The notes below the pieces were generated by a model. The model searched no databases, was not told the DNA's origin, and saw only the letters and a program-made list of their open reading frames with translations. A DNA stretch of 55,853 nucleotides, taken from contig JAJYUR010000001.1 of assembly GCA_021792395.1 (NCBI GenBank), positions 5,742-61,594 of the forward strand. Reading direction: 5' to 3'. This document shows positions 41,048 through 55,804 of the stretch, in pieces. The translations under genes and the position numbers were made by a program. This stretch comes from Microcaldota archaeon (GTDB lineage Archaea; Micrarchaeota; Micrarchaeia; Micrarchaeales; Micrarchaeaceae). Position 1 is the stretch's first letter, and the number at the start of each line of letters is the position of its first letter.

Positions 41048-43405
41048 TTATACCCTTATGTCATCAGGGTTGTCTACGTTTATGAGCCTTATCATTCCAG
41101 CAGATATATAGAGTTTCAACTGCTCCACATCTGGGGAGACATTGCTGTAAAGCGAATCCTTGAATTCTTCCAATCGGTCTTCGTTAATGAATGCGATGTA
41201 GGTTATGGAATTTGAATATACCGGTATGTTCTTGAATCGGCTCGTAGGCGAGAATATAACGATGTATATCTTTTCCCCATGCGACGCTATAGTCATGTCT
41301 GCCACGGTGCTCGAATCAAGATCGCTGAATATCAGTGCATGCGAAACGAAATAAAGCCTCAGTTTCTTGAAAACAGCGAGGTACTCTATATCATGCTTGC
41401 TCGCGTCTATCCATGCCTTAGGCGCGTATAGGTCATCTATCGATGCCAATTCATTTTTTTCAACCAGCTGGCTCAGTATGACATCCACATTATTATATGT
41501 AAGGTTAATCGGCATATTGTTCTTCCTAAGATTCGTTGCAATCGCCATCCTCACCTCGTTTTTTGAGAGGGGCATATACTTCCAATGATAATATGAGTTG
41601 AGCTTGTCAAAGACGCCTATTACTTCGTTGGGCTTTAGCTTTATCGGTATCTTATCCTGCCTTGGCAGATTAGGCACGTCTATATAAAATTCGTCCCTGT
41701 TCGGCGCCCTCACCAGCGTAACCATCATCAATACTATTATTGCAACTACCGCAAGCTCTATGTATTGGCTGCTTATTTTTATGGCGGTCGATGGGCGCAC
41801 AAATACGTATGTAAAGTTCTTTGAAAGCATTGATATTGAGAATGTAGCATTGCCGTTTATCTTTGGCGATCCCGATGGCAGCGCATAATACAGCGTACCG
41901 TTGCTTATCACGCCCGAACTTTTGTATAGCCCATTTACTGATATTGAATAGTTCACGCCAGATATGGGCATGCCACCAGATGAGACGGCTATCCTATATA
42001 CGTTTGACGAAAAGTTTGCATTTGACATGGAAAGTTTTACGCTAGGCACTTGAAAAAGCGCCGCCGCATACTGCATATTTGAGAAGCTTTCCAGCCTTGC
42101 AATGTATTTCCCAGGGGGAAGCTGCAGTGTCAGGTATTTTAAAAAGGTGAAGTTGCCATATGCTGAAAAGAATTGCAGAGGCAGTGTCTCAATCATGCTC
42201 ATGTTGGCAGTATATATACTGAGATGCGGCTGTATGCTTATAGGTATAGACGACCTTGTAAATACTTCAAGCGTAGCCGGAGTAGACTGGCCAGGAATGA
42301 TATCCGAAGGAATCGATATTGACCCGTTTATGGAATAATCAGGAACATACAGATAATACTTGTATATGCTAGCATTGGTAAGATTATACGTCATATTGTT
42401 GTATAATGCAACACGCAGGTAACCTGAATTGAGCTTAGGCAACGACGTTGAATTGTACGCAAATTCTGTTTTATTCAATATTATGCCTATGTTTCCTGAT
42501 CTTTTTTGGTAATAGCCAACAGGTATTAACTGAGTGTCAGAAGCATATTTAGGTATCCAAAATTCCTGGGCGGCTGCCTTCGCTATGTCGCTGCCAGCTT
42601 CTGCCGGGCTTCTCCATGAATTAAGATAGTTTGAAAATGCTATTATTGAACCGTTGAAAATGTTTGCGTAAGAAGCAGTGCCGTATGTTCCCCCTGAAGT
42701 GAAACCAAATGTGGCATTGCTAAAATAAAACGTGCTTGTTTTAGGAAGCGATGTTGAAAAGGTAGAGAGGAATGGAAGGTTGTTCGAATTTGGTACAACA
42801 ACACCGCCCGGAAGAACAAGTCTTGAAAAGCTCTGTCCGACATAGATTATGCTTGTGCCGCGATTCAGCAAGTACTGCAGTATTGTTTCATTTGTGCCGT
42901 TTATGTACTCAAACATGTAAGATGGCATTAGTCCGTTGATTATTATGAGCAGCGAGTCATTATTTATTGATTGCAGGTCAGACTTTGAGAGTACTCCTAT
43001 CGATGACTCTGAATTTACTACGCCGTAAGATACTAGATCGTTTTCTATTGCGCTGGCTGCGGCAAACGAATTACCACAGTTGAAGCAGTCATTTGAATAA
43101 TTCAGCATATACACATTAGAGGGCGGCAGGGACGCTAGCAGCGATACGTTTAAAATCGCATATGGGACATTTGCAGCGTCGTAGAAGAGCAGCGAATACG
43201 GGAATACTGAGCTGTTCTGGTTATAGAATAGCATGTTCTGGGATATCATAGATGAATATAGGGCAGTAGTCACATTATGCTCGGCAGGAATAGGTGAAGG
43301 GCTTGATGATATATGGCGCAGCATAACTGCAAGATATCCGAATATTCCGATTAGCACTATGACCATTATCAGTGCCAATGCCAATATTTTTTTGAAGTTG
43401 ACCAC
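41048..43405 (-). CDS. Large membrane protein: N-terminal TM, extracellular region, second TM, soluble cytoplasmic C-term
   Basis: 785 aa; Asn/Ser-rich ectodomain; TM at YIELAVVAIIVLMMVTLVRAP; terminal gene of the T4SS-like block. GTG start. Confidence 0.7.
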   Translation of the reverse strand: MVNFKKILALALIMVIVLIGIFGYLAVMLRHISSSPSPIPAEHNVTTALYSSMISQNMLFYNQNSSVFPYSLLFYDAANVPYAILNVSLLASLPPSNVYMLNYSNDCFNCGNSFAAASAIENDLVSYGVVNSESSIGVLSKSDLQSINNDSLLIIINGLMPSYMFEYINGTNETILQYLLNRGTSIIYVGQSFSRLVLPGGVVVPNSNNLPFLSTFSTSLPKTSTFYFSNATFGFTSGGTYGTASYANIFNGSIIAFSNYLNSWRSPAEAGSDIAKAAAQEFWIPKYASDTQLIPVGYYQKRSGNIGIILNKTEFAYNSTSLPKLNSGYLRVALYNNMTYNLTNASIYKYYLYVPDYSINGSISIPSDIIPGQSTPATLEVFTRSSIPISIQPHLSIYTANMSMIETLPLQFFSAYGNFTFLKYLTLQLPPGKYIARLESFSNMQYAAALFQVPSVKLSMSNANFSSNVYRIAVSSGGMPISGVNYSISVNGLYKSSGVISNGTLYYALPSGSPKINGNATFSISMLSKNFTYVFVRPSTAIKISSQYIELAVVAIIVLMMVTLVRAPNRDEFYIDVPNLPRQDKIPIKLKPNEVIGVFDKLNSYYHWKYMPLSKNEVRMAIATNLRKNNMPINLTYNNVDVILSQLVEKNELASIDDLYAPKAWIDASKHDIEYLAVFKKLRLYFVSHALIFSDLDSSTVADMTIASHGEKIYIVIFSPTSRFKNIPVYSNSITYIAFINEDRLEEFKDSLYSNVSPDVEQLKLYISAGMIRLINVDNPDDIRV

Positions 43406-43420
43406 TTACAGTGCACCGCA

Positions 43421-43555
43421 TCAATCTTTGTTTTTCCCGGCAAATACCCTGGCAAATAGCTTGGTCAGCATGTTCTGCCCGCCTCTGACATGCTTTAGCA
43501 CGGTATATATGCGGATGTATTTTACTCTCTTGTTTATTCTCACATTGTATATCAT
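43421..43555 (-). CDS. Possible small basic protein (44 aa)
   Basis: Manual translation MIYNVRINKRVKYIRIYTVLKHVRGGQNMLTKLFARVFAGKNKD; starts 4 nt after the stop of the upstream gene. Confidence 0.4.
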   Translation of the reverse strand: MIYNVRINKRVKYIRIYTVLKHVRGGQNMLTKLFARVFAGKNKD

Positions 43556-43559
43556 GCAG

Positions 43560-44288
43560 CTAACCCTTAAGCTCTATATAACTCATGGAAACCATCTTGT
43601 TCAGCATCTGCTCGACTCTAGGTATGGTTATTCTGTAGGTCTTTGCGAACTCAGCCAGGTCTATTGTATTGTTATGGGAATCTATCCATTCCTCAATCAT
43701 GACCATAAGGGATTCGTCGGAATACGTCTCAAGCTGCTTTAGCCTCTCTGTAAGTTCGTTATTCTGCGCACTGAGCTCCGTAGCTTGGGCAGTAAGGTTC
43801 TTGTTTGACGATGCAAGCTCTATGTTCAGCCTCTTGAGCTCCCTGTATTCATTGAATAATGAATCATAATTATTGAATAGCGCACTGTAGCTTTGCGATA
43901 GCGAGCCCATCAATTCATCTATCGATGAGTCTACATATTGGTATAATGACACGGGGTCAGGGGAGTAAAGGTCAGCCACAAGCGACAATACAGATAGTAG
44001 GTTCTTGACAACGTAGATGCGCCTCATCTTTTCGCTCGTGTCCAACGCTATTGAGTATTTGACTTCTATTGAGCCTGCATTAAATGTTATTATAAAGAAT
44101 AGGAATGGATTCTTTTGTATGTCCCTGCTTTCCACAGTAAGCAATACGAGGCTGTCGGGATTTATTTTTATGGAGAACATCTGCAGCGTGGAGAACCTGT
44201 TTGCCATTGCGGAAAAATCCCCCAGCAACGTCCCTTTTATGGAAAATTCTGAAATCTTTGGTTCTACAGTTCCTACATTTTCAACCAT
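43560..44288 (-). CDS. Coiled-coil protein with C-terminal winged-helix-like segment
   Basis: 242 aa; YRELKRLNIELASSNKNLTAQATELSAQNNELTERLKQLE coiled coil; IDLAEFAKTYRITIPRVEQMLNKMVSMSYIELKG. Confidence 0.65.
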   Translation of the reverse strand: MVENVGTVEPKISEFSIKGTLLGDFSAMANRFSTLQMFSIKINPDSLVLLTVESRDIQKNPFLFFIITFNAGSIEVKYSIALDTSEKMRRIYVVKNLLSVLSLVADLYSPDPVSLYQYVDSSIDELMGSLSQSYSALFNNYDSLFNEYRELKRLNIELASSNKNLTAQATELSAQNNELTERLKQLETYSDESLMVMIEEWIDSHNNTIDLAEFAKTYRITIPRVEQMLNKMVSMSYIELKG

Positions 44289-44370
44289 TTTATCACAATT
44301 GCAGACATGCGCGTTCCAATGCGCATAGCATATTTATTAGGGCAGTTAATTATAAAAGCGTTGAACTGTG

Positions 44371-44757
44371 CTACTTGGCCGCAGCATCGTATTCATGGGG
44401 CAGAGCAAGTGGGGGCATATAGCTCAGCAAAGACATGAAATACAAGAACAGCGTTATTATGACGCCTACGAATATGCCCGTCAGGTTTCCCCGCGAGGTT
44501 ATGGCCAGCATTACAGTAAATATTATTCCAAGCGCGACATACCCGACCTGCTTTCTGATGAAAGATGAGCGCGCCTTGTAGTATTTTTTATAATCGTCTT
44601 TGCAAACCACTAGGGTATAATGCTTCTCGTTTTTGGTCACGTTGCGCTTGAACCATCTTATGCTGTTTATGATATAATCTGCCTTAACAGGTATGCCATT
44701 CTTCTCCTGCCCGCATAGGATGCACCTATAATCTTTGTTCATGTATGCCACTCTCAA
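44371..44757 (-). CDS. Small protein with N-terminal CxxC zinc-ribbon-like motif and two C-terminal TMs
   Basis: 128 aa; CILCGQEKNGIP ... VVCKDD; TM pair. ATGA overlap with upstream gene. Confidence 0.65.
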   Translation of the reverse strand: MRVAYMNKDYRCILCGQEKNGIPVKADYIINSIRWFKRNVTKNEKHYTLVVCKDDYKKYYKARSSFIRKQVGYVALGIIFTVMLAITSRGNLTGIFVGVIITLFLYFMSLLSYMPPLALPHEYDAAAK

Positions 44758-45068
44758 TCGAAGTCTATGATCGCTTCGTATATGCGCCCTGATTCCGATG
44801 CCAGTTTCTGCTCGTCCGCCATGTTGAGAGAGTTGTTTATACTTACATCATCCATCCCGAGCCTCCTTAATATGTTTGATATTGTAGACTTTTGTATGTC
44901 TGATTTCTCAAGCAGGGATATAAACGTGACTATATTTATGTGCCTGTGCGCCTTCTCCATGTCGGAGAACAGCCTTTCCACGTTCTTCTCGTCGACCTTG
45001 TATGCTATCAGTATGCGCCTTAATTCAGGCCTCGTTATTGAATATGATCCGATGTTTTTAGCTGCCAT
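44754..45068 (-). CDS. Small soluble helical protein of T4SS-like block
   Basis: 104 aa ORF tightly packed between ATPase and zinc/TM genes. Confidence 0.6.
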   Translation of the reverse strand: MAAKNIGSYSITRPELRRILIAYKVDEKNVERLFSDMEKAHRHINIVTFISLLEKSDIQKSTISNILRRLGMDDVSINNSLNMADEQKLASESGRIYEAIIDFD

Positions 45069-45069
45069 T

Positions 45070-46584
45070 TCAACTACCTGACGCGGATATTATCCTGGCT
45101 ATCAGTGTGTCCTCTATGCTTATGCTTTTCAGGAACGTTACCAGGTCATTGTTGTTCACTCCGTTCTCTTTCATCAACCTTATAAAATCAAGCATTTTCA
45201 TCGAGCGCTTCTGTGCATCGAGCTGGGCGAATATTGCATTTATTACCTCTGAGGTCACGTTATATTCTATGAACTTGTTCTTTAGTTCATCGCCTTCGAA
45301 TTGGTAGTCGCGCTGCATTATGCCTGCTGAAAGCTCGCTCTGAGTCAGTATATCAGCCATATCCAACGTATATACATAAAGCGGCTCCTCACCTTTGATG
45401 CGCCCGAGTATGAATATCTCTGGAAAATGCTGCGCAGTCTGGAACGCCATATTCACAGCTGCCTGGCCTACCCCGAACTTGCTTATCTCAGACCTTATGA
45501 ACTCGGAGAAGTTCATAGACCCCTGCAGGTAATTCATGAATTTCTCGAACTTTATCCTGAGCATGAACGTGGTGCCCACGTTAGAGAATATAGCCTCGTT
45601 TATATCAGTGGGGTTCTGCGATGCGACTATCAGGCCGAATTGGTATTTTCTTCCTTCCCTGACTATCATTATGGCGTCGCTCTTCTCGTCGCTTGCCACC
45701 TTCCACGCCTCATCCAGCACTACCATCGTCTTTATGCCTTTCGATTCGCTCCAACCCTCTACGCGCATCCTCTCCTTTAGGGTCTGCAATATGAAAAGGG
45801 CTGCAAGGGCGCGGAACCTTTCGTCAGGCAATCCTGACAGGTCTATGTCCACCATTCCTGATTCTGCAATCTTTGACAGGTTCAGTGTGCTTTTCCTGGC
45901 AAAATAGTCCTCGCCTTCGCGCGCAAACTGCCTCAGCCTGTATATTGCATTTTCCAGTTCTGCAGGATATTCATATGTGCCTTCCTGGAGATGCTCCTCG
46001 AGAAGAGATATGGCGTCTTTTATGGTAGGCGCATCTACGTTGTCCGGGGCGCGCTCGGAAAGATTGAACCCCCCGTTGACATACGCCTGTTCAAGTGCTT
46101 CTTCCGTCAGCCTTTTCTGCTCCGGATACATACCTATGTCGGTCAGTATGTCAAATGCAGTGAGTATCTGCTTGACCCTGTCCAATGGCTTCATGCCTGA
46201 AAGGTCCATGATGTTTATGTAGTCTCCCTTGCCGAGCGATACTATGGTGCCACCGCTCTGCTTTACCCATGCCTTGTATTCAGCAGCCCAATCTATTATA
46301 ACCGCATTGGTGCCCCAGACGTAGTTGGCTCGTATCAGAAACGTTTTTACGAAATAGCTTTTGCCTGCGCCTGTTATTCCGACAACAGCTATGTGCGGGT
46401 TTGTGACATTGGCGAATGTCCAGCTGAAAGGCACCTTGAATATCTTCGTATTGCCTATGTATATGCCTTGGAAAGGATCGTTTATCAGCACATTTGACGG
46501 AGGCTCGGGAGGCCTAGAAAGGAAGGCCCTCTTTGCGATCTCGTTGCTCATTATGTGCTGTAATTTCAACAATGTCATATTCAA
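45070..46584 (-). CDS. VirB4/TraC/HerA-type conjugation ATPase
   Basis: 504 aa; VVGITGAGKSYFVKTFLI (Walker A), TMVVLDEAWKVA (Walker B), IVASQNPTDINEAIFSNVGTTFMLRI. Confidence 0.92.
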   Translation of the reverse strand: MNMTLLKLQHIMSNEIAKRAFLSRPPEPPSNVLINDPFQGIYIGNTKIFKVPFSWTFANVTNPHIAVVGITGAGKSYFVKTFLIRANYVWGTNAVIIDWAAEYKAWVKQSGGTIVSLGKGDYINIMDLSGMKPLDRVKQILTAFDILTDIGMYPEQKRLTEEALEQAYVNGGFNLSERAPDNVDAPTIKDAISLLEEHLQEGTYEYPAELENAIYRLRQFAREGEDYFARKSTLNLSKIAESGMVDIDLSGLPDERFRALAALFILQTLKERMRVEGWSESKGIKTMVVLDEAWKVASDEKSDAIMIVREGRKYQFGLIVASQNPTDINEAIFSNVGTTFMLRIKFEKFMNYLQGSMNFSEFIRSEISKFGVGQAAVNMAFQTAQHFPEIFILGRIKGEEPLYVYTLDMADILTQSELSAGIMQRDYQFEGDELKNKFIEYNVTSEVINAIFAQLDAQKRSMKMLDFIRLMKENGVNNNDLVTFLKSISIEDTLIARIISASGS

Positions 46585-46619
46585 ACCCTAATTCATTAAT
46601 TCATTAATATAATCGATCA

Positions 46620-47450
46620 TCAACTCTGCTGATTGAACTGCGAAGCTTCTTCTGCAAACGATACTGGCAATGCGAAATTAAACTGGAACAGCGTGTAAAG
46701 TTCCCTGCCTACTATCCTTCGCAACTCAAGGTCAAATGCGCTGAATGATACCTGCAGCCGCTTCACCTGCTCTTCCAATGCATCAAACGCAGCTTTCTCG
46801 CTGACACCTATTGCCGTGGTTTCTATATACATAAGCGTAGCTATTGGCTTTTCGCCTTTTGAGATGCGATCTATCTTTGCCTGCACAACATTCATCTTCC
46901 TCTGTATGTCGGTTATAGTGACCTCGTTGGCATTGCCCTGCAGCGCGCGGGACATCTCGAATTCCTGGTAGGAACGCTTGCCTTCGAGTTCATCCCTTAC
47001 GGTCTGTATGTCCATGCCTGACGATATCACATGAAACTTGTATGGGAAGTCGATGTTCATCACAAGACGCTCATATGATTCAGGGGCGAGAATCAGGCGC
47101 TCCTCATCCTCTTCCGGGGCGCTCTCCTCCTTGAATAGGTAGCCAAATATGTTTGCCGTTATATATCCGGTGGCATAGAAGAGCCCGCTTACATTTTTCA
47201 CCACTGCATCCTGCTTCTTAGTTATATAATAATTATTGGCTGGCTGGAATGTGATGCCAAGCATCGATGTAATCCCTGGTATTATGATGGAATCTGCCCA
47301 GTTTAAGGCAAGTATCATCACTACGCCGAAAACCAGTATAAGCACGGCAATGATGGAGTAGAACCCTTTGCCGAATGACGACAGCATGGAAAACGCTATG
47401 AGCATTAGCATAAGCGAAAATATCAGAAATATTGCTCCTTCTTCATCCAT
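46620..47450 (-). CDS. TM-hairpin membrane protein of T4SS-like block
   Basis: 276 aa; two or three N-terminal TMs then soluble alpha/beta region. Confidence 0.65.
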   Translation of the reverse strand: MDEEGAIFLIFSLMLMLIAFSMLSSFGKGFYSIIAVLILVFGVVMILALNWADSIIIPGITSMLGITFQPANNYYITKKQDAVVKNVSGLFYATGYITANIFGYLFKEESAPEEDEERLILAPESYERLVMNIDFPYKFHVISSGMDIQTVRDELEGKRSYQEFEMSRALQGNANEVTITDIQRKMNVVQAKIDRISKGEKPIATLMYIETTAIGVSEKAAFDALEEQVKRLQVSFSAFDLELRRIVGRELYTLFQFNFALPVSFAEEASQFNQQS

Positions 47451-48286
47451 TATATGACCTCTTCCTCAAGATTCTTATTTATCTGCTCCGTAACTGTAGA
47501 GAAGGGTATTAGCGAATCCGGCTCTATGAACTTTTTAAGCTGCATGCCGGTTATTATGCTAGGTGTAATCCCGAATATAGAGCCTATGCCTGACATCAGC
47601 TCCCTTGCCTTTTGCTGGGCTACGCTGACAGCCTCGTATTCCTTGCTGCCTATGCCTGACACCGATGCATAGCTTATAAGCTCAAATGAGAGATCCTTGC
47701 TTATGCTATCCAGAAGGTTCCTCCACATTGCAGTCTTGCCCTTCACCCTTTCAATGGCATCCTTCGATGCATCGGGTTTCTGCTCCAGTTCGGCTTCCTC
47801 ATTTTCTGATAAATTTATAGCATCACGCAATTGCTGTATGTATGAATCCTTGTTCATGACATACATCTGGCTTGTAAACCTGACAGGATCGCGCGCTATC
47901 CCTACAAGCCTGCTCACCTGCCTTGAAAATTCGAGCTTCTGCTCGTCTGGCATCTCAGTAGCTGATAGATACAGAGGTATAGATATGTAGACCGTTGCAA
48001 TGTAATCCTCCTTGCTCCTGTGCAGTATCGAATCGGCAGAAGTAGCCATCCAATATGCGTCCTCCTTGCTTAGTATTATGTGCCTGCTCCTCTGCTTGAA
48101 TATAGGCACCAGCAGATAAGCATAGTATCGCGATGAGAATGCAAGTATGTCTACCATCACCGCCAGGAGAAGCAGTATGAGCTTTCCGAAATATGGCATT
48201 ATAGATACAGGAAGTGCGATGCTTATGATGAGAAGTATTGCAGATATCATAAGGAGCCCAAGGAAATTAATGATTTTATTAGCCAT
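47450..48286 (-). CDS. TM-hairpin membrane protein, possible PrgI/VirB3 + VirB4-N-like module
   Basis: 278 aa; two N-terminal TMs, then soluble region with SRQVSRLVGIARDPVRFTSQMYVM and GITPSIITGMQLKKFIEPDSLIPFSTVTEQIN. Confidence 0.6.
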   Translation of the reverse strand: MANKIINFLGLLMISAILLIISIALPVSIMPYFGKLILLLLAVMVDILAFSSRYYAYLLVPIFKQRSRHIILSKEDAYWMATSADSILHRSKEDYIATVYISIPLYLSATEMPDEQKLEFSRQVSRLVGIARDPVRFTSQMYVMNKDSYIQQLRDAINLSENEEAELEQKPDASKDAIERVKGKTAMWRNLLDSISKDLSFELISYASVSGIGSKEYEAVSVAQQKARELMSGIGSIFGITPSIITGMQLKKFIEPDSLIPFSTVTEQINKNLEEEVI

Positions 48287-48344
48287 CCAAATCTCTCATA
48301 TAACTGCATTCATACTTATTGGTATAAAACCTTTTATTTGTTTC

Positions 48345-49535
48345 CTATATGAATCCTCCCCTTATCCTTCCGCCCATCTGCGCAGCTCCGCCGATAAAGT
48401 TGGCAACTTGCACTACGAATGCGTATGTGACAGAAATTATCAATGCAGGATAGAACAATATCAGGAGCCAAAAGCTCTGCATCGACGTATTTATTTCGCT
48501 AAGGACCCCTATGGCAGGGTTTGACGGATTGATTGAGCTGAGCTGCACGCTGGATGTATTGAACCTGTTTAGCAGCAGCGATTCCGCGCTGAGCTGCGAC
48601 ATCAATTGAGGTGCAGTGAAGTAATACGCCACTGAAAACATTATAGGCATGACGAAGTAGAACCCCAATGCAAGCGCTATCATCATCCCTCCCAATGCCC
48701 TTGTTGGTATCATCACCCTGAAGATGACCCCAGGTATCAGGAATACAGGGATAGCTGCCACAGCAAAAAACAGTATCAGGTAGTATTCCGCATAGAGCGC
48801 GAAAATGCCGTCGGCAATGTAGGATGCCAGCACCTGCGCAGGCTCCATGAATAAGAGGAATATTATTTCCTGGGCGCTTTCAATCAGGCTCGTAAGGACC
48901 TTAGTATTTGTGACTGGCGTCGTTATTGATACGCTTATGCTTTTTATGAACGCGTCTGTCATGTAGACGTTGAAGAGCGATGTATAAATATTTTCAGCGG
49001 AGCTTATCGTGCTCGTTATGAGGTGCAGGGATGTCGCAAATGGATTTATAGGACCCACGAATACGGCAGGCACAATGCCGAACATGACCGCGCTTATGTA
49101 CACAAAAAGGCCTATTATCAGCGCGCTTGCAAGGACTTCGTATATTTCGCCGATTCCGAAATTCCTCATCTTTTGGTTTCTCAATGCTGTGCCCACCATG
49201 AATATCATGGATGCGATGAAGAAAGCCAGCAGCAGCACTATAAGAGCCAGGGGCAGATAGTTTAACCACGCGCTGTATACCTGCTCGTTTATGGGGCAGT
49301 ACCATGATTCATTCTTCTCTATGCTATTGGACAGGGCTGACGGCACCAGCGCACATTGCGAGGAGACTGTCGGCGGTGTTGAAGCGCCTCCACCTCCGCC
49401 AGGAATCCTCAATAATACCGGAGTTATAGCGTGCGCTGCAGTTGAAGCATTAGCCGCATGCACCAGCACAATCACCAGCATGGCTGCAGCTGCAAATAAA
49501 AGCACGTTCCTCGCTATTTTTTTTATGCGGATCAT
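48345..49535 (-). CDS. VirB6-like polytopic membrane protein, paralog 1
   Basis: 396 aa; signal-like N-term; shared motif GVIFRVMIPTRALGGMMIALALGFYFVMPIMFSVAYYF. Confidence 0.7.
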   Translation of the reverse strand: MIRIKKIARNVLLFAAAAMLVIVLVHAANASTAAHAITPVLLRIPGGGGGASTPPTVSSQCALVPSALSNSIEKNESWYCPINEQVYSAWLNYLPLALIVLLLAFFIASMIFMVGTALRNQKMRNFGIGEIYEVLASALIIGLFVYISAVMFGIVPAVFVGPINPFATSLHLITSTISSAENIYTSLFNVYMTDAFIKSISVSITTPVTNTKVLTSLIESAQEIIFLLFMEPAQVLASYIADGIFALYAEYYLILFFAVAAIPVFLIPGVIFRVMIPTRALGGMMIALALGFYFVMPIMFSVAYYFTAPQLMSQLSAESLLLNRFNTSSVQLSSINPSNPAIGVLSEINTSMQSFWLLILFYPALIISVTYAFVVQVANFIGGAAQMGGRIRGGFI

Positions 49536-49542
49536 GCGAACA

Positions 49543-52074
49543 CTATATCATTCCGCCCATCATGGACATGAAGTTTATCCTTTCTCCTATTGCTTTTGAA
49601 AAGTCAGCTATAAAAGCGTCTAATATTATGAAATTTATAAAAGGCACGAATGTGAGCCCTGCGACCAGGTAGCCTATGCCCTCTATCATAGGCAGCAGCA
49701 ACGAATAAATTACCTCGCCTGTTGCTGCCCCTGGCGTTATGGATCCCATCAGTAGCGTCGTTAAATTGCCTGATGAGAGCAGGGATAGAAAACCTTGGGA
49801 CTGCATCTGGACATTTATAAAGCCGTATGTTATGCTTGTAAGCAGTGGAAACACTATGCCGAGCCCTAGACCCAATGCTATCAGAATGCCCCCGAACGAC
49901 CTTGTAAATCCCAATACCCTTATCAGCAATCCTATGCTGATAAATACCACTAGGAAAAAGAATGACCCCGATATCAGTATCAGTTGTATGTTGTTTAGCA
50001 TGAGCATGAACAGTATCGCGGAAAATGCTACTGAAAGCCCAGCTTCCAGGCTTTTCGGGAATATGGATTCTATGCCTGCGCTGACCGAGATGCCCATCTG
50101 TCCTGGAACGTGTGCAACGACCTTGATGCCTGGAAGGAATCCGATCACGTATCCCAAATAAAATAAACTGCCAAAATAGCTGAATGCAGTGTTGCTGAAT
50201 GTGCCAACATCGCAAGCCGACATGTTGAAAAGTGTATTTATATCTGTAGCGGAGCAGGTGCTGGGCACCAAGCCTGCGCTGCTGTATGCTGCCTGCGGGT
50301 TCATGAAGAACACGCCTATTACAGATATGAATGCTATGAACAGCACCACTGAAAAGACCGCTTCGTATATCTGGATGCGCGCCCAGTTCTTTGCATTAGA
50401 GCTGCTTATGACGCTCGCAAGCATATATACTATGGCTGCTATCAGTATCACTATAAGCGTGAATATGAATGCAATGGAGAGCCATGTCTCCGGAGCCCCC
50501 AAAAGGCTCTGGTATGCTTTAGGGAGCACGTTTATTGACGCCTCTGCAGATGTGGCAGAGAGCGGAGGGGATGCGCTGTCGGTCACCTTTACGCTATAAT
50601 AGTACAGCCCGAAGGATGTGGAAGACGAAGTGACAAATATGTATTCCGAAGATTCCGCTCCAGTTATGGGAATTTGCGACCCGGAGGTATCGTTGTACCA
50701 TTGGTATGTGTATGGCGGCGTGCCTCCAGTTGCCGATGCTTTGAGCGTTACGCTGCTCCCTTGTGAAATCGCGGTTCCAGATGGCGCTATCGTAGGTGTT
50801 GGAAGTCCATTGACTGTTATAGATATAGGTTTTGAAGTTGATGTAACCGGCGATGATGCAGAATCGGCTACGACTACGTAATAACTGAAGGTGCCCTTAC
50901 CGTTTGCAGTTTCGGTGTATGTCGAAGATGACGATATTTGAATGGGTATATCAGTACCGCTTGTAGAATTATACCATTCATATGTGTATGGCGGCGTGCC
51001 TCCAGATACTGAAGCCGCAAGCGTTATTGTCTGTCCATCATCATATGCCGTGCTTGAAGAGGATATGCTTGGAGAGGATAGGACAGGATTTACGGTTATG
51101 TGCGACGGCCCGATATCCGTTGTCTGGCCCAAGCTGTCAGTCACACTGGCGCAATAGTATGCCGATGCTGCCGGCGATACATATATTGAATTTGCAGTAG
51201 TTGATATGCCCGAATAGGATGCAATAACATTTGTATCGGATGAGCAGCTGGATGATGTACCTGAATAATATGTTATTTCATAATCTGGGATTCCGCCGCC
51301 CCACGATGCCTGCAGTTCTGCGTTTTGGCCTGCATCCAACGTAGCTTTAGACGGCGAAAGAGTTCCAGATATGCTGCTGGCTACGGTATACTGACCTGTG
51401 GAAGACTGTGCGGTTTTGCCTGAGCCGTCTGTCGCTTTAACGTAATAGGAGAACGTGCCTGTAGCAGACGCAGTTGCAGAATATGTTGATGCGGTCTGCC
51501 CAGAAATGGCTGCCGGCGTTCCGGTTGTGTCGTTGTACCATTGATAACTATATGGCGGATTGCCGTTAGAGACGGATGCAGCTATCGATATAGTTTGGCC
51601 TATGCTATATGTATCGGATGTCGGGGATATAGATACGGAAAATGAAGGAGGTGGAGGTGGTGGAGGGGTTGATGTGCAGAACGATTTACCTCCTTTTTGA
51701 ATTCTTCCATTGCTGCCTACGCTACATATCACTATAGTGGAAGCTTCAGGGCAACTGGATGGACATGAACCTACGCATTCGGTAGTGCCGCATTCTGAAA
51801 CAACGCTTCCGCAGCCGCATGTAGGAAGAAACGCAACATCACTTAGATTGCGCATCGCGCTGCCTGTATCATAATTTGAATAGCTTGCCGATACAGATGA
51901 TCTGGCGAAATTAGGAAGGGCGAAGGCGGGATGATAGGTTAATGGAGTTGAGCCTGCCTGAATGGGTGCATGCGAAAGATATGACATATGCAGTATGGAG
52001 AATAGCATAAACAGTAGGAACAGCGCCGCACTGGCAGACTTTTTCATATTCTTTGCGTTCTTTCTTGTTAACAT
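49543..52074 (-). CDS. Surface protein: Cys-rich segment, four Ig/PKD-like repeats, VirB6-like membrane domain (paralog 2)
   Basis: 843 aa; PPPPPPP linker; repeats with GGTPPYTYQWYN; membrane motif GLLIRVLGFTRSFGGILIALGLGLGIVFPLLTSITYGF. Confidence 0.75.
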   Translation of the reverse strand: MLTRKNAKNMKKSASAALFLLFMLFSILHMSYLSHAPIQAGSTPLTYHPAFALPNFARSSVSASYSNYDTGSAMRNLSDVAFLPTCGCGSVVSECGTTECVGSCPSSCPEASTIVICSVGSNGRIQKGGKSFCTSTPPPPPPPSFSVSISPTSDTYSIGQTISIAASVSNGNPPYSYQWYNDTTGTPAAISGQTASTYSATASATGTFSYYVKATDGSGKTAQSSTGQYTVASSISGTLSPSKATLDAGQNAELQASWGGGIPDYEITYYSGTSSSCSSDTNVIASYSGISTTANSIYVSPAASAYYCASVTDSLGQTTDIGPSHITVNPVLSSPSISSSSTAYDDGQTITLAASVSGGTPPYTYEWYNSTSGTDIPIQISSSSTYTETANGKGTFSYYVVVADSASSPVTSTSKPISITVNGLPTPTIAPSGTAISQGSSVTLKASATGGTPPYTYQWYNDTSGSQIPITGAESSEYIFVTSSSTSFGLYYYSVKVTDSASPPLSATSAEASINVLPKAYQSLLGAPETWLSIAFIFTLIVILIAAIVYMLASVISSSNAKNWARIQIYEAVFSVVLFIAFISVIGVFFMNPQAAYSSAGLVPSTCSATDINTLFNMSACDVGTFSNTAFSYFGSLFYLGYVIGFLPGIKVVAHVPGQMGISVSAGIESIFPKSLEAGLSVAFSAILFMLMLNNIQLILISGSFFFLVVFISIGLLIRVLGFTRSFGGILIALGLGLGIVFPLLTSITYGFINVQMQSQGFLSLLSSGNLTTLLMGSITPGAATGEVIYSLLLPMIEGIGYLVAGLTFVPFINFIILDAFIADFSKAIGERINFMSMMGGMI
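50527..51645 (-). repeat. Four tandem Ig/PKD-like domain repeats within the 843-aa protein
   Basis: (S/G)NGNPPYSYQWYND, GGGIPDYEITYYS, GGTPPYTYEWYNS, GGTPPYTYQWYND at ~90-aa spacing; matching DNA tatgtgtatggcggcgtgcctccag at two copies. Confidence 0.8.
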
Positions 52075-52078
52075 GTTT

Positions 52079-53179
52079 TCACACGACCTTGTTCAGCATC
52101 CTACTCGACGTAAGGCTCGACGCGCCAAGGAAGCTGCCTATAGTTTCACTGAAGTCGAATGCGATTATAAGCGATATCGCCACAGCAACCAATGTGAATA
52201 TGGCTGGCGTTATTATATACTCTATGAAATTACTAAGTATCTGCGCCGGAAGTATATCGACAATACTTGCAAAAGTGGATAGGGAGTTCAAAGGATTCAA
52301 TGAAAACGCGGCGCTGCCACCTGACATGATTGCACTTAAAGAGCTAGTGACGCCTGCCGATGTAGATGTTGGGATTGCAACCATATTGGCAGCCAGCAAG
52401 AAGTGCAGGAGCAATGGAAATAGTATGTAGAAGCTTATGAATAGCCCAAGGAACGAGCCGCCCGCCGCCCTCGTCCACGGCATTGTCCTAAGTACTATGC
52501 CTATGAAGAAGAATAGCGGAAAGACCCCATATATTACATAAAGCACGACAATCATCCCAACCATCAGGCCTATGAATCCAGTGCCTACGTTAATTACGAA
52601 TGTTAACACTCTTGATATCACACTAAGGCCGGAGAAGGGGCTTACGCCGAAACCGAAAAAGTTTGGCTCTATTTTTATGTTTATAGATGCAACTAGAGAA
52701 ATGACCTCCTGCTGTACGCCGAAAATTATCAGTGGGCCTACCAGATTCAATGAACTTGCATAAAGCCCTTCACATGCCGAAGAGAACGTCTGCGAGCTTA
52801 TTGGATGATTTGCAGCAGGGAAGAACGCGCTTGGCCCTGATATAGTATTGGAAACAGAAAACGTGCCCAGGAATATGAGCACTATAAGCAATGTTACTGC
52901 TATCTCGCCTATCTCTACTCGGCTGAACCTTGCAAGCTTGTCCAGTTTGAAGGCGTATGACAACGCATATGTTATGCCGGTTATTATGAACATTGTCAGT
53001 ATTATCAGCAGCGCTATGCTTATCATTGCGCCTCCGCCGTCAAAATTTGCAGATACTTGAGAATTGAACGTGCATACAGGCACTGTAGATGCCCCTGCAG
53101 GCGCTGCAAGCTGCAAGAACACCAGTGCTGCAGCTATCAACAAGATGGCCTTGCCTCTTATGATTCTAGCATGCATCAT
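52079..53179 (-). CDS. VirB6-like polytopic membrane protein, paralog 3
   Basis: 366 aa; GIVLRTMPWTRAAGGSFLGLFISFYILFPLLLHF. Confidence 0.7.
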   Translation of the reverse strand: MMHARIIRGKAILLIAAALVFLQLAAPAGASTVPVCTFNSQVSANFDGGGAMISIALLIILTMFIITGITYALSYAFKLDKLARFSRVEIGEIAVTLLIVLIFLGTFSVSNTISGPSAFFPAANHPISSQTFSSACEGLYASSLNLVGPLIIFGVQQEVISLVASINIKIEPNFFGFGVSPFSGLSVISRVLTFVINVGTGFIGLMVGMIVVLYVIYGVFPLFFFIGIVLRTMPWTRAAGGSFLGLFISFYILFPLLLHFLLAANMVAIPTSTSAGVTSSLSAIMSGGSAAFSLNPLNSLSTFASIVDILPAQILSNFIEYIITPAIFTLVAVAISLIIAFDFSETIGSFLGASSLTSSRMLNKVV

Positions 53180-54654
53180 ACCAACCTCGAAAGACCTGCT
53201 AATTGCGTGTCACCGCCCAGCAGTCCGGAAAGTCCTATTATGCCCGTAAGGACTATCAGTATATTAATTATGGGCAGAAAGTATGCCGATACCGATATAA
53301 CGCCGTATTCATCCATGAGAGTGTAAAGGGTATCTGCTGCCGCAGCTGGCGAACAGTATGACGGCAGATAGAATGATTTTATTGGATCGGTTGATATCAC
53401 AGATGATGCAGCGACATTAATCATTGAGGCTATGCTGCTGAACGGTATGAACAGGTAGGCTATGTCCTCAGCTTCAGCCTGTATTAAATTTCCACCTGCA
53501 GGCCAGCATCCGTACGCCTTGCCTGCATATTTTATTTGAGGCATGTCGTAGAAATTGACCACATAGGGATCATAGCTCGATGATATCGAATTGTAAACAG
53601 ATGAAGGGATATATGTTGTGTTCTCGCTTAGCAGCGAATTAAAGCCGTATGCTGACGCTATGCTTATGGTAGAGCTCGAGCTTGCGGTAAGCGCGGAACC
53701 TATGCCGTTGCCTAACGATAGGTATTCTATTGCAAAAACGGACGGATAAAACAGTATAACGCCTATGGCTATAGCTATGAAAAGCCCCCCTATCTTGCGC
53801 GTGAATACAGTCGCCCTGAATATGATGCCTATGAACAGCAGGTATGGCCATACGTAAATGAACATGGCAATGAAATTGAGCTGGACTATGAATGATTCAA
53901 ACGCAAGGTTGAGCACTGAGCCCAATGCTGCAAGCGTCTTGTATATCATGCTTATTCCGCTGTATGGGGTGAAAGAAACGGTGAGAAAGAATAGATTAGG
54001 CAATGGAATAGGACCCAAGCACTGCACAAAATCAGGGTTGCCGCAGTACCTTATCGTTGGAGACACTGTTTCCAGGAATCCGAGGAATGCATCGTATACG
54101 AAGAAGCTGTTCATGTTGTTTGCGGTCTGGTTAGTCATGTTTGCTACTATTACTCCTGACGCCGCCAGGGGATAGTCGACCATCTCCGTCAAAGATGAAG
54201 GGGAGTTTACAAGGCTGCACAGTCCAGGGAAAGCAGCTGAAGATGAACTGCTCTGGACCAACAGCGATGCGGAATGCGAAGTCACCGAATGCGAAGGATT
54301 CAGTATGCCCAGCTGCGAATGTGCAGCTATGCTGTTGCACAGCGAGTATATGGATGAGCTGCTCATGAGCGACGTTGAATTCAGCCCGTTGTAGAATATG
54401 ACGCCGAAGGTTGTTATGACGAATATGATTATGCTTATCAGGACTATAGTGCCGACGAACTGGTAGAATTCGTTCTTTGCCGCTTCCCTTGCACCTGGGT
54501 TCTGCAGCAGTGTGGCAGCCATATACCAAACACCTATTATCACAGAATCGAAAAGCAGGGCCATGAATGCCAAAGGTATCAGGTCTGACTTCACGTTGCT
54601 GAAGGACGGCAACTGAAGTATTATTCTCCCAATGCTCAATATGTCAAACATCAT
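53176..54654 (-). CDS. VirB6-like polytopic membrane protein, paralog 4
   Basis: GIIFRATVFTRKIGGLFIAIAIGVILFYPSVFAIEYL; start moved from 54738 to ATG at 54654 (MMFDILSIG), after a GAGGT ribosome-binding-like site, removing overlap with the upstream gene. Confidence 0.7.
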   Translation of the reverse strand: MMFDILSIGRIILQLPSFSNVKSDLIPLAFMALLFDSVIIGVWYMAATLLQNPGAREAAKNEFYQFVGTIVLISIIIFVITTFGVIFYNGLNSTSLMSSSSIYSLCNSIAAHSQLGILNPSHSVTSHSASLLVQSSSSSAAFPGLCSLVNSPSSLTEMVDYPLAASGVIVANMTNQTANNMNSFFVYDAFLGFLETVSPTIRYCGNPDFVQCLGPIPLPNLFFLTVSFTPYSGISMIYKTLAALGSVLNLAFESFIVQLNFIAMFIYVWPYLLFIGIIFRATVFTRKIGGLFIAIAIGVILFYPSVFAIEYLSLGNGIGSALTASSSSTISIASAYGFNSLLSENTTYIPSSVYNSISSSYDPYVVNFYDMPQIKYAGKAYGCWPAGGNLIQAEAEDIAYLFIPFSSIASMINVAASSVISTDPIKSFYLPSYCSPAAAADTLYTLMDEYGVISVSAYFLPIINILIVLTGIIGLSGLLGGDTQLAGLSRLV

Positions 54655-54661
54655 ACCAACC

Positions 54662-55804
54662 TCATATGCTGCCCCAGAATGACCCTGCGCCTTCCACGCC
54701 TGAATTGAGCCCTTTCGCCAGACCCATTGCGAACCCAATCGTTACCGTTATGTCTATGCCGAACATGAATATTGCAGTGAATATGAATTGCGATATCTCA
54801 GTTATCGAAGATTGTGCGCTGCTTATCACGTATGATGGGTCGAACTGCGCGCCCAAATCGCTGAAATACGTACTGCCTATGAGTGAGCTTATTGCCGGAG
54901 TAGTAATGCCATCGAACGTTACGCCTTGGCTCGATACCGAATTGAAGAAGGATGATGGCAGATTGTTCAGCGAATATGCAGTGCTTATACAGCCTGTACA
55001 TCCGTACAGAGGATTGTTTCCGCTGAATATCCAGTGTATCGCATATGCATTGAAGGCTATCATCAGCGGATATACAAGATATGCTGCAATGGCTATCGCC
55101 AGGAATGCATTGGCGGTCGTGCGCAGTCCAGAACCGGTAAGCGATATCGAGCGCAGGACTAGCGCTATGGGCAATACGACTACAAAAGCTGTAAATTCTA
55201 TGAGCGGCAGCGATATGTACTGCAGGAATAATGCACCGATAGCCATTATGGTGAATGGCGCAAATAGATCAAAATATACATCCGAAAGGCTGCCATACGC
55301 GGCACCGAAATCCTGCCCGATGACAATGTCTACGCCCACGACCGATGCATTGCCAAGATGGGCCAATGGAGATACTTCTCCGATGTCAGTAAGCACCCTG
55401 GCGTCTATAGCATACGTCACTGATGTGCTGTATATGTTACCGAGGAGCTTAAGCCCTGTATTCATTGCCAGATTCCCTATGTAGAAATCAGCATACTGGA
55501 ATGGCGACAGGGACGTACCAACAAGCGTTTGGCTTAGCGAAGATGTTATATTGCACGTAAGCTGCGACATCCCCAAGAGTATCAGTATTATGACTATGCT
55601 GAGCATCAGCTGGGTCATGTCCACCTTCAATAGGCTAGACACCTTCGATTTTGTTGCGCCAGGGAAGAACCTGCTGAGCATGTACAGGAATGCAAGGATA
55701 GAAAATGATGCAGCTATGACCAGGTAGTTTATGCTGAGCCAGCTATTTACGTATGTCGACCCGCCAAACAATGCGCACCCGTTTATGATCAAAACAAACA
55801 CCAA
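54662..55804 (-). CDS. VirB6-like polytopic membrane protein, divergent paralog 5
   Basis: 380 aa; LVLRSISLTGSGLRTTANAFLAIAIAAYLVYPLMIAFNAY. Confidence 0.65.
   Translation of the reverse strand: MVFVLIINGCALFGGSTYVNSWLSINYLVIAASFSILAFLYMLSRFFPGATKSKVSSLLKVDMTQLMLSIVIILILLGMSQLTCNITSSLSQTLVGTSLSPFQYADFYIGNLAMNTGLKLLGNIYSTSVTYAIDARVLTDIGEVSPLAHLGNASVVGVDIVIGQDFGAAYGSLSDVYFDLFAPFTIMAIGALFLQYISLPLIEFTAFVVVLPIALVLRSISLTGSGLRTTANAFLAIAIAAYLVYPLMIAFNAYAIHWIFSGNNPLYGCTGCISTAYSLNNLPSSFFNSVSSQGVTFDGITTPAISSLIGSTYFSDLGAQFDPSYVISSAQSSITEISQFIFTAIFMFGIDITVTIGFAMGLAKGLNSGVEGAGSFWGSI

Follow-up and report, generated by a model that had tools for sequence, protein, structure and literature searches.

Conjugation machines that have become domesticated are known in archaea from the crenarchaeal Ced and Ted systems. 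Ced of the Sulfolobales and Desulfurococcales (CedA, CedA1, CedA2, CedB, CedD and CedE) is chromosomal and combines the VirB6-like CedA and its paralogue CedE with a VirB2-like pilin and a VirB4/HerA-type ATPase; no relaxase is known for it (PMC9905601; PMC11868833). Ted of the Thermoproteales (TedA, TedB and TedC), likewise chromosomal, consists of a signal-peptide pilin, a VirB6-like channel and a VirB4-like ATPase (PMC9905601). We report here on a gene block of a Micrarchaeota archaeon with a genome of 0.83 Mb (Microcaldota archaeon, GCA_021792395.1), the larger share of which occupies positions 41048-55804 on the minus strand of a 55,853-nt stretch of DNA, the window (G000:C14:5742-61594). 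An earlier note, made from the letters alone, had taken these genes for an undescribed, domesticated archaeal type IV secretion system (T4SS) or Ced-like machine, and our analysis leads to much the same view. Since VirB2-type pilins, CedA-related pore proteins and a motor related to CedD, CedB and VirB4 are fixed together on the chromosome in nearly the whole phylum, the block probably encodes a chromosomal, pilus-forming, domesticated conjugation-like (VirB2/VirB4/VirB6) apparatus of Micrarchaeota. Judged by its sequences, the apparatus is like Ced and Ted in kind, yet it is not Ced, and it would add a further archaeal phylum, and a different architecture, to the known domesticated conjugation machines. 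In the open-access literature (preprints and most subscription papers not covered) no paper was found that links Micrarchaeota to VirB, T4SS or Ced, and the system is provisionally regarded as undescribed.

Twelve open reading frames (ORFs) of one strand fill the interval, from O1 at its 55804 end to O12 at its 41048 end, and several adjacent ORFs overlap or are separated by only a few nucleotides (-4, 4, 7, -1, 1 and -4 nt). The compact minus-strand block of about twelve genes with short overlaps, as first described, is thus present, and the ORF list and transmembrane (TM) scan also returned its membrane set of two TM-hairpin proteins, five polytopic proteins and one large ectodomain protein. 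The block continues past 55804. The sequence beyond, which had been pointed out as a place to look for pilins, holds two VirB2/TrbC-type pilin genes, PilA (136 aa) and PilB (207 aa; L036 6670-7293), a sixth pore paralogue, O0 (421 aa, polytopic), and a further polytopic protein, Om1 (254 aa; L036 5065-5829), all on the same strand as O1-O12 (L036 3771-7293 = C14 61770-65292). The complete order over about 19 kb is PilB-PilA-Om1-O0-O1-...-O12, followed downstream of O12 by convergent genes for topoisomerase VI-B (topoVI-B) and KRR1. A scaffold gap of 100 N lies at the window end, just past 55853, between O0 and O1, and the sequence flanking it looks duplicated. Because the same gene set and order are repeated in dozens of genomes, the block is not a chance arrangement.

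Compared with Ced, the locus has six pore paralogues where Ced has one or two, it carries the ATPase and the hairpin and N-terminal domains on separate proteins (O6, O7 and O8) and not on TM-NTD-ATPase fusions (NTD, N-terminal domain) such as CedB and CedD, it adds the conserved proteins O9-O12, its pilins have an apparent cleavable signal and a Cys pair, and the curated cut-offs for CedA, CedB and CedD are not reached. From Ted it differs in gene content and in the number of pore paralogues, and the ParA, Rad50 and HerA genes that neighbour Ted were not recognised here. The T4SS of Patescibacteria such as Southlakia epibionticum is similarly chromosomal, belongs to an epibiont lineage, has pilins and is missing coupling protein and relaxase (PMC12102498; PMC10633639), but it uses a bacterial MPF_FATA VirB4 with its partners, and common descent beyond the superfamily is not evidenced. 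In Gram-positive and haloarchaeal plasmid conjugation the row PrgI/TrsC - TrsD - VirB4/TrsE resembles O6-O7-O8, although those genes are plasmid-borne, their ATPase retains its own N-terminal domain and the similarity to O7 is weak. The rvh T4SS of Rickettsia, a reduced, host-dependent cell, offers a parallel in its five highly diverged VirB6 paralogues with variable flanking domains (PMC2653234); it is, however, a didermal bacterial system with VirD4 and outer-membrane parts.

Pilins, pore proteins and motor

PilA and PilB share an N-terminal hydrophobic stretch followed by two hydrophobic helices that are joined via a short polar loop, and in many members of their family an apparent signal-peptidase site follows the first stretch. 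Among 22 family members (20 of the main system, two of a second, compact system described below), the Pfam profile TrbC/VIRB2 (PF04956) matches 13 (best 9.7e-8) and T4SS_pilin (PF18895) matches 11 (best 1.6e-5), so that a VirB2/TrbC-type pilin with two TM helices, as expected of the T4SS/conjugation superfamily, is present. Among PDB sequences TrwL of R388 was matched with E=0.011, a score that claudin-like chains also reach. Main-system pilins conserve two cysteines, one preceding the first helix and one near the C-terminus, which the two second-system pilins lack; both residues would face outward, which makes a disulfide between them likely. PilB carries a Ser/Thr-rich linker and a Cys-rich C-terminal tail beyond the pilin core and is possibly an adhesive tip pilin. 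Of the 18 relatives fetched, 16 have a pilin gene upstream of the block, and the pilin family occurs in all 12 genomes tested across the class.

The polytopic VirB6/CedA-like proteins of the window are O1 (54662..55804; 380 aa, about seven TM helices), O2 (53176..54654; about 492 aa), O3 (52079..53179; 366 aa), O4 (49543..52074; 843 aa) and O5 (48345..49535; 396 aa), the best conserved of them. O2 probably starts at 54654 and not at 54738, which gives the 492 aa also found in a near-identical genome (L059). That the five are related, as the earlier note had it, is borne out by comparisons of hidden Markov models (HMM-HMM) and extends to O0: all fifteen pairs of O0-O5 reach 96-99.7% probability (O1 with each of the others 96-99%), which makes them one paralogous family, while Om1, O10 and O11 reach about 7% or less against it. 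Om1 is therefore unrelated to the pore paralogues by this measure and belongs to no known family; it sits between pilins and O0 within the order and beyond the pilins in a distant family (f15; L227, L228). The pilin family scores 88% against O1, and for CedA1 and CedA, too, the pilin has been reported to be homologous to the N-terminal part of the VirB6-like protein (PMC9905601). O3 is the only protein of the genome that the NCBIfam profile Ced_CedA matches (E=5e-4 in a scan of the block; 5e-7 and 31.6 bits in the whole-genome search). The same profile matches six of 52 O3 orthologues (best 2.6e-7), and in most relatives that have a CedA match it also falls in this gene block. HMM-HMM comparison of the pore family with one pLS20-type VirB6 was negative.

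The lengths of the pore paralogues vary widely among relatives (O0 up to 911 aa, O2 975 aa, O5 1237 aa), unlike those of O6-O12, which are nearly fixed. In O4 the extra length consists of Ig-like repeats (Pfam Ig_3, 5.9e-17), and its position between an N-terminal hydrophobic helix and the polytopic part would place it outside the cell; O4 orthologues mostly have 348-497 aa. The repeats occur in the window's species and its close twin, most other orthologues are without them, and in other species large inserts are carried by other pore paralogues. These patterns suggest that the outer loops of the pore proteins change fast.

O8 (45070..46584; 504 aa) is the motor candidate, a VirB4/CedB/HerA-type ATPase with the Walker A motif GITGAGKS, the Walker B motif VVLDEAWK and Pfam matches to the DUF87/AAA_10/TraG P-loop group. 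Its highest NCBIfam scores are those of CedD (71 bits, cut-off 600), CedB (67.5 bits, cut-off 700) and VirB4 (61 bits), ahead of HerA (54 bits). It has neither a TM segment nor the N-terminal domain of VirB4, and thus no TM-NTD-ATPase fusion as in Ced. The DEAW of Walker B is shared with several plasmid VirB4 proteins, whereas most of the genomic HerA-like family has DEAQ. The tree unites O8 with the second-system ATPase in one clade (support 99 in the Shimodaira-Hasegawa-like approximate likelihood ratio test, SH-aLRT) that is placed with VirB4 proteins; the fork separating this side from the genome's HerA-like family has a support of 89, which is not decisive. Profiles, Walker motifs and tree position agree in this way with the VirB4/HerA-type ATPase claimed at first, and they supply the VirB4-type motor that characterises the T4SS/conjugation superfamily. 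The possibility raised with that claim, a repair HerA beside NurA, was not what we found: O8 lies outside the genome's HerA-like family and does not adjoin it, and around it lie the other genes of the block, topoVI-B and KRR1, among which no NurA was recognised. For the HerA-like gene used in this comparison, pairing with NurA is itself not established. Behind O8 follows the helical O9 (44754..45068; 104 aa), whose position is conserved among relatives; residues 426-497 of O8 match the O9 gene with 19% identity, and O9 looks like a duplicated O8 C-terminal tail. An apparent insertion of about 250 nt in the ATPase gene of four genomes proved to be a tblastn artefact joining O8 to O9, the ORF being intact in the two genomes checked.

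O6 (47450..48286; 278 aa) and O7 (46620..47450; 276 aa) each consist of a TM hairpin and a cytoplasmic domain, of alpha/beta type in the core component O7, and are paralogues (98.5% in HMM-HMM comparison). Over 120-130 columns O7 reaches 34% against VirB4 N-terminal domains and 43% against a set of proteins in TrsD position, weak values set against a background of mostly below 6% in unrelated comparisons. On Gram-positive and haloarchaeal plasmids the ATPase comes after a small protein, PrgI/VirB3-like in the annotated cases, and a protein of 200-350 aa in the TrsD position, and as a working idea we regard O7 as a counterpart of VirB3 and the VirB4 N-terminal domain. The TrsD-position proteins before VirB4 on plasmids of Geobacillus, Paenibacillus and Haladaptatus (L262, L268, L273) may themselves share the VirB4 N-terminal fold.

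Conservation across Micrarchaeota and a second system

The synteny search across Micrarchaeota that the earlier note had suggested revealed an order conserved across families. Among the best 80 of 303 candidate loci, nearly all are labelled Micrarchaeota, and one near-identical genome that GenBank labels 'Marsarchaeota' (L059) has 99% identity at the ATPase. ATPase identity amounts to 80% in Ca. Micrarchaeum A_DKE and 66% in ARM-1, both of which are complete chromosomes. Of the 60 nearest genomes, 56 have an O8 orthologue, and the other four are 74-77% complete. Most contigs long enough to show it repeat the order O1-O12 beside topoVI-B/KRR1. In the distant family f15 (L219, L220, L227, L228) the block extends intact from the pilins to O12, with different neighbours; in other families O7-O8-O10-O11-O12 stay together, with the pore genes grouped in runs at other sites and as many as 14 profile matches in a genome. 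Another genome (L258) has its pilins immediately before O7-O8 and keeps O10-O11-O12 alongside, and in ARM-1 the set is split over separate loci with its parts retained. In a minority of relatives (e.g. L096, L108, L113, L116) pore genes were not detected beside O6. O7 occurs in 251 of 301 Micrarchaeota genomes and in 88 of the 96 near-complete ones, counts in which the profile may include the second system; O11 also occurs in 88 of the 96, and the eight genomes missing it all belong to families f23-f27. The most conserved part is O8 (median identity 75% within and 65% between families), the other parts showing 27-46% between families. As far as gene content and order can tell, the block belongs to the core equipment of most of the class and is not a passing element.

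A smaller relative of the machine is encoded elsewhere (C41; L037 8879-16543) and comprises a pilin-like protein (T4SS_pilin, E=0.003), one pore protein, O7-like, O8-like and O11-like proteins and an ATPase of 763 aa. In HMM-HMM comparison its pore protein reaches 99.7% against O5, with an alignment that did not contain the second-system protein, its O7-like protein reaches 99.9% and its O11-like protein 41%. The parts common to both systems point to a core of pilin, pore, hairpin protein and motor, possibly with O11. The 763-aa ATPase family is present in 26 of 41 genomes and had no plasmid match; a likeness of O7 to it was at background level.

Components for substrate recruitment in conjugation were likewise sought. 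VirD4 (PF02534) was not found in the window's genome and was marginal in two of the 41 genomes, TcpA-type coupling proteins not having been searched, and a PF03432 relaxase was found in none of the 41, other mobilization (MOB) classes not having been searched. The absence of both from the window, as read at first, therefore holds for the genome with these profiles. The ATPase alignment found no relative among viral contigs and none above 27% identity among plasmids, which speaks against an origin from a mobile element.

Proposed working and rival explanations

We propose that VirB2/TedC-like pilins would be freed of their signal peptide, inserted into the membrane and assembled into a thin pilus. 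The six specialised paralogues O0-O5 may assemble hetero-oligomerically into the membrane pore and the base of the pilus, their variable outer loops serving contact. From their position and weak similarity, O6 and O7 would tether a ring-forming O8, with O9, to the pore and so replace VirB3 and the VirB4 N-terminal domain, and O11, which has a winged-helix-like end, and the membrane-spanning O12 may connect the motor with the substrate in the cytoplasm and with the contact outside. Since VirD4 and a PF03432 relaxase were not found, as in Ced and Ted, single-stranded DNA moved without a relaxosome is the most likely substrate, and movement would most likely be inward.

Several observations weigh against a conjugation-like machine. 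The CedA matches stay far under the curated equivalog cut-off (330 bits), which points to a distant relationship and not to CedA itself. HerA families match O8 almost equally well (54-66 bits, including PADLOC HerA models). The similarity of O7 to VirB4 N-termini is weak, and its AlphaFold2 model (predicted local distance difference test, pLDDT, 80) found no fold match in the PDB with Foldseek, the VirB4 N-terminal domain included. For the O3 model (pLDDT 79, predicted template modelling score 0.72), compared with 350,542 PDB chains, Foldseek ranked VirB6/TrwI of R388 first (E=0.33, TM-score 0.27-0.33) and two more entries of the R388 T4SS stalk at ranks 7 and 24 (E=1.4 and 2.9); the match is not significant, the TM-scores of the R388 matches being about 0.2-0.35, and it is suggestive only. 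Finally, no VirB8, VirB1 or coupling protein was recognisable.

Were O8 part of a HerA-type DNA end-processing or anti-phage complex tethered to the membrane by chance, its HerA scores would be accounted for; however, neither NurA nor any known partner of HerA could be recognised among the block's genes, a PADLOC search of O8 gave generic HerA/DndH-type matches only, O5, O6, O7, O12 and the pilin had no PADLOC match, and the HerA-like gene of this genome lies elsewhere and belongs to a different family, so that we hold this to be very improbable. Small hydrophobic pilin-like proteins and surface domains could also belong to a type IV pilus, archaellum-like or S-layer secretion system, two type IV pilus loci being known in Micrarchaeon Mia14 (PMC5498576). 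The ATPase, however, is of VirB4/HerA and not of PilB/TadA type, for which there was no Pfam match, and the pilins, in which a pair of hydrophobic helices follows the leader, match TrbC/VIRB2 rather than class III prepilins; we give such a system hardly any credence. More generally, the searches did not assign the membrane proteins to any unrelated known system. A conjugative element still capable of self-transfer among Micrarchaeota would have just this component set, and the compact second copy with its widespread ATPase family fits it. The fixed place beside topoVI-B/KRR1 in most of the order, the 65% ATPase identity between families, the presence of marker proteins in 88 of the 96 near-complete genomes, and the lack of a PF03432 relaxase, of viral-contig matches and of closer plasmid relatives speak against mobility, which we judge improbable.

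Two uses of the domesticated conjugation-like apparatus have to be weighed. Micrarchaeota cells are tiny, and those members of the group that are in culture live on other archaea. Ced-like import of DNA from kin or host is preferred because Ced systems, the closest archaeal relatives of known function, import DNA (PMC11868833), and we put its probability a little short of even; most of what is left under the same explanation falls to macromolecular exchange with the host cell. In the latter case the apparatus would serve to export proteins, or to draw in macromolecules from the Thermoplasmatales host, a role that has been suggested for the T4SS of epibiotic Patescibacteria. This use agrees with the variability of the outer inserts, such as the Ig repeats of O4 and pore paralogues of more than 900 aa, beside the fixed lengths of O6-O12, and with the host-bound life of cultured Micrarchaeota. 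The lack of coupling protein and relaxase also fits it, since the same lack led others to question whether the essential T4SS of Southlakia transports DNA (PMC10633639). Cryo-electron microscopy has shown synapse-like openings of about 30 nm and pili joining cells of ARMAN (archaeal Richmond Mine acidophilic nanoorganisms) to their host (PMC4110969). Against it stand the import of DNA by Ced and the lack of a recognised effector or secretion signal, for which no directed search was made, and we regard it as rather unlikely, though worth serious consideration. In the open-access literature we found no genes assigned to these pili and openings. Tentatively, and with a similarly limited likelihood, the machine could be the physical basis of the Micrarchaeota-host 'synapse', drawing in host DNA or other macromolecules through a hetero-oligomeric pore of six paralogues, with contact loops that vary between species, as a separately arisen archaeal counterpart of the Patescibacteria epibiont T4SS. 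The machine could explain how Micrarchaeota join hosts or acquire DNA, and the parallel with the relaxase-less Patescibacteria T4SS suggests that two unrelated groups of tiny epibionts retained the same kind of machine. The named gene set is present in the cultured Ca. Micrarchaeum A_DKE and ARM-1 and is there open to localisation.

Accessory proteins

The remaining proteins of the block are O10 (44371..44757; 128 aa), with a CxxC-type N-terminus and a TM hairpin, O11 (43560..44288; 242 aa), a marker of the system built of an N-terminal domain, a coiled coil and a C-terminal winged-helix-like region, and O12 (41048..43405; 785 aa). Searches of the PDB and Pfam with the sequences of O6, O7, O11 and O12 gave nothing useful, and for O12 neither a Pfam relative nor a natural PDB relative was found; its matches to designed TIM barrels are probably artefacts. 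O12 has an N-terminal TM helix, a long outer part forming a large ectodomain, a second TM helix near residue 549-567 and a conserved inner, cytoplasmic domain. In other families (L219, L220, L222, L225) a single-TM protein of 1,000-1,450 aa adjoins O12 and is a candidate for a large surface protein of the system.

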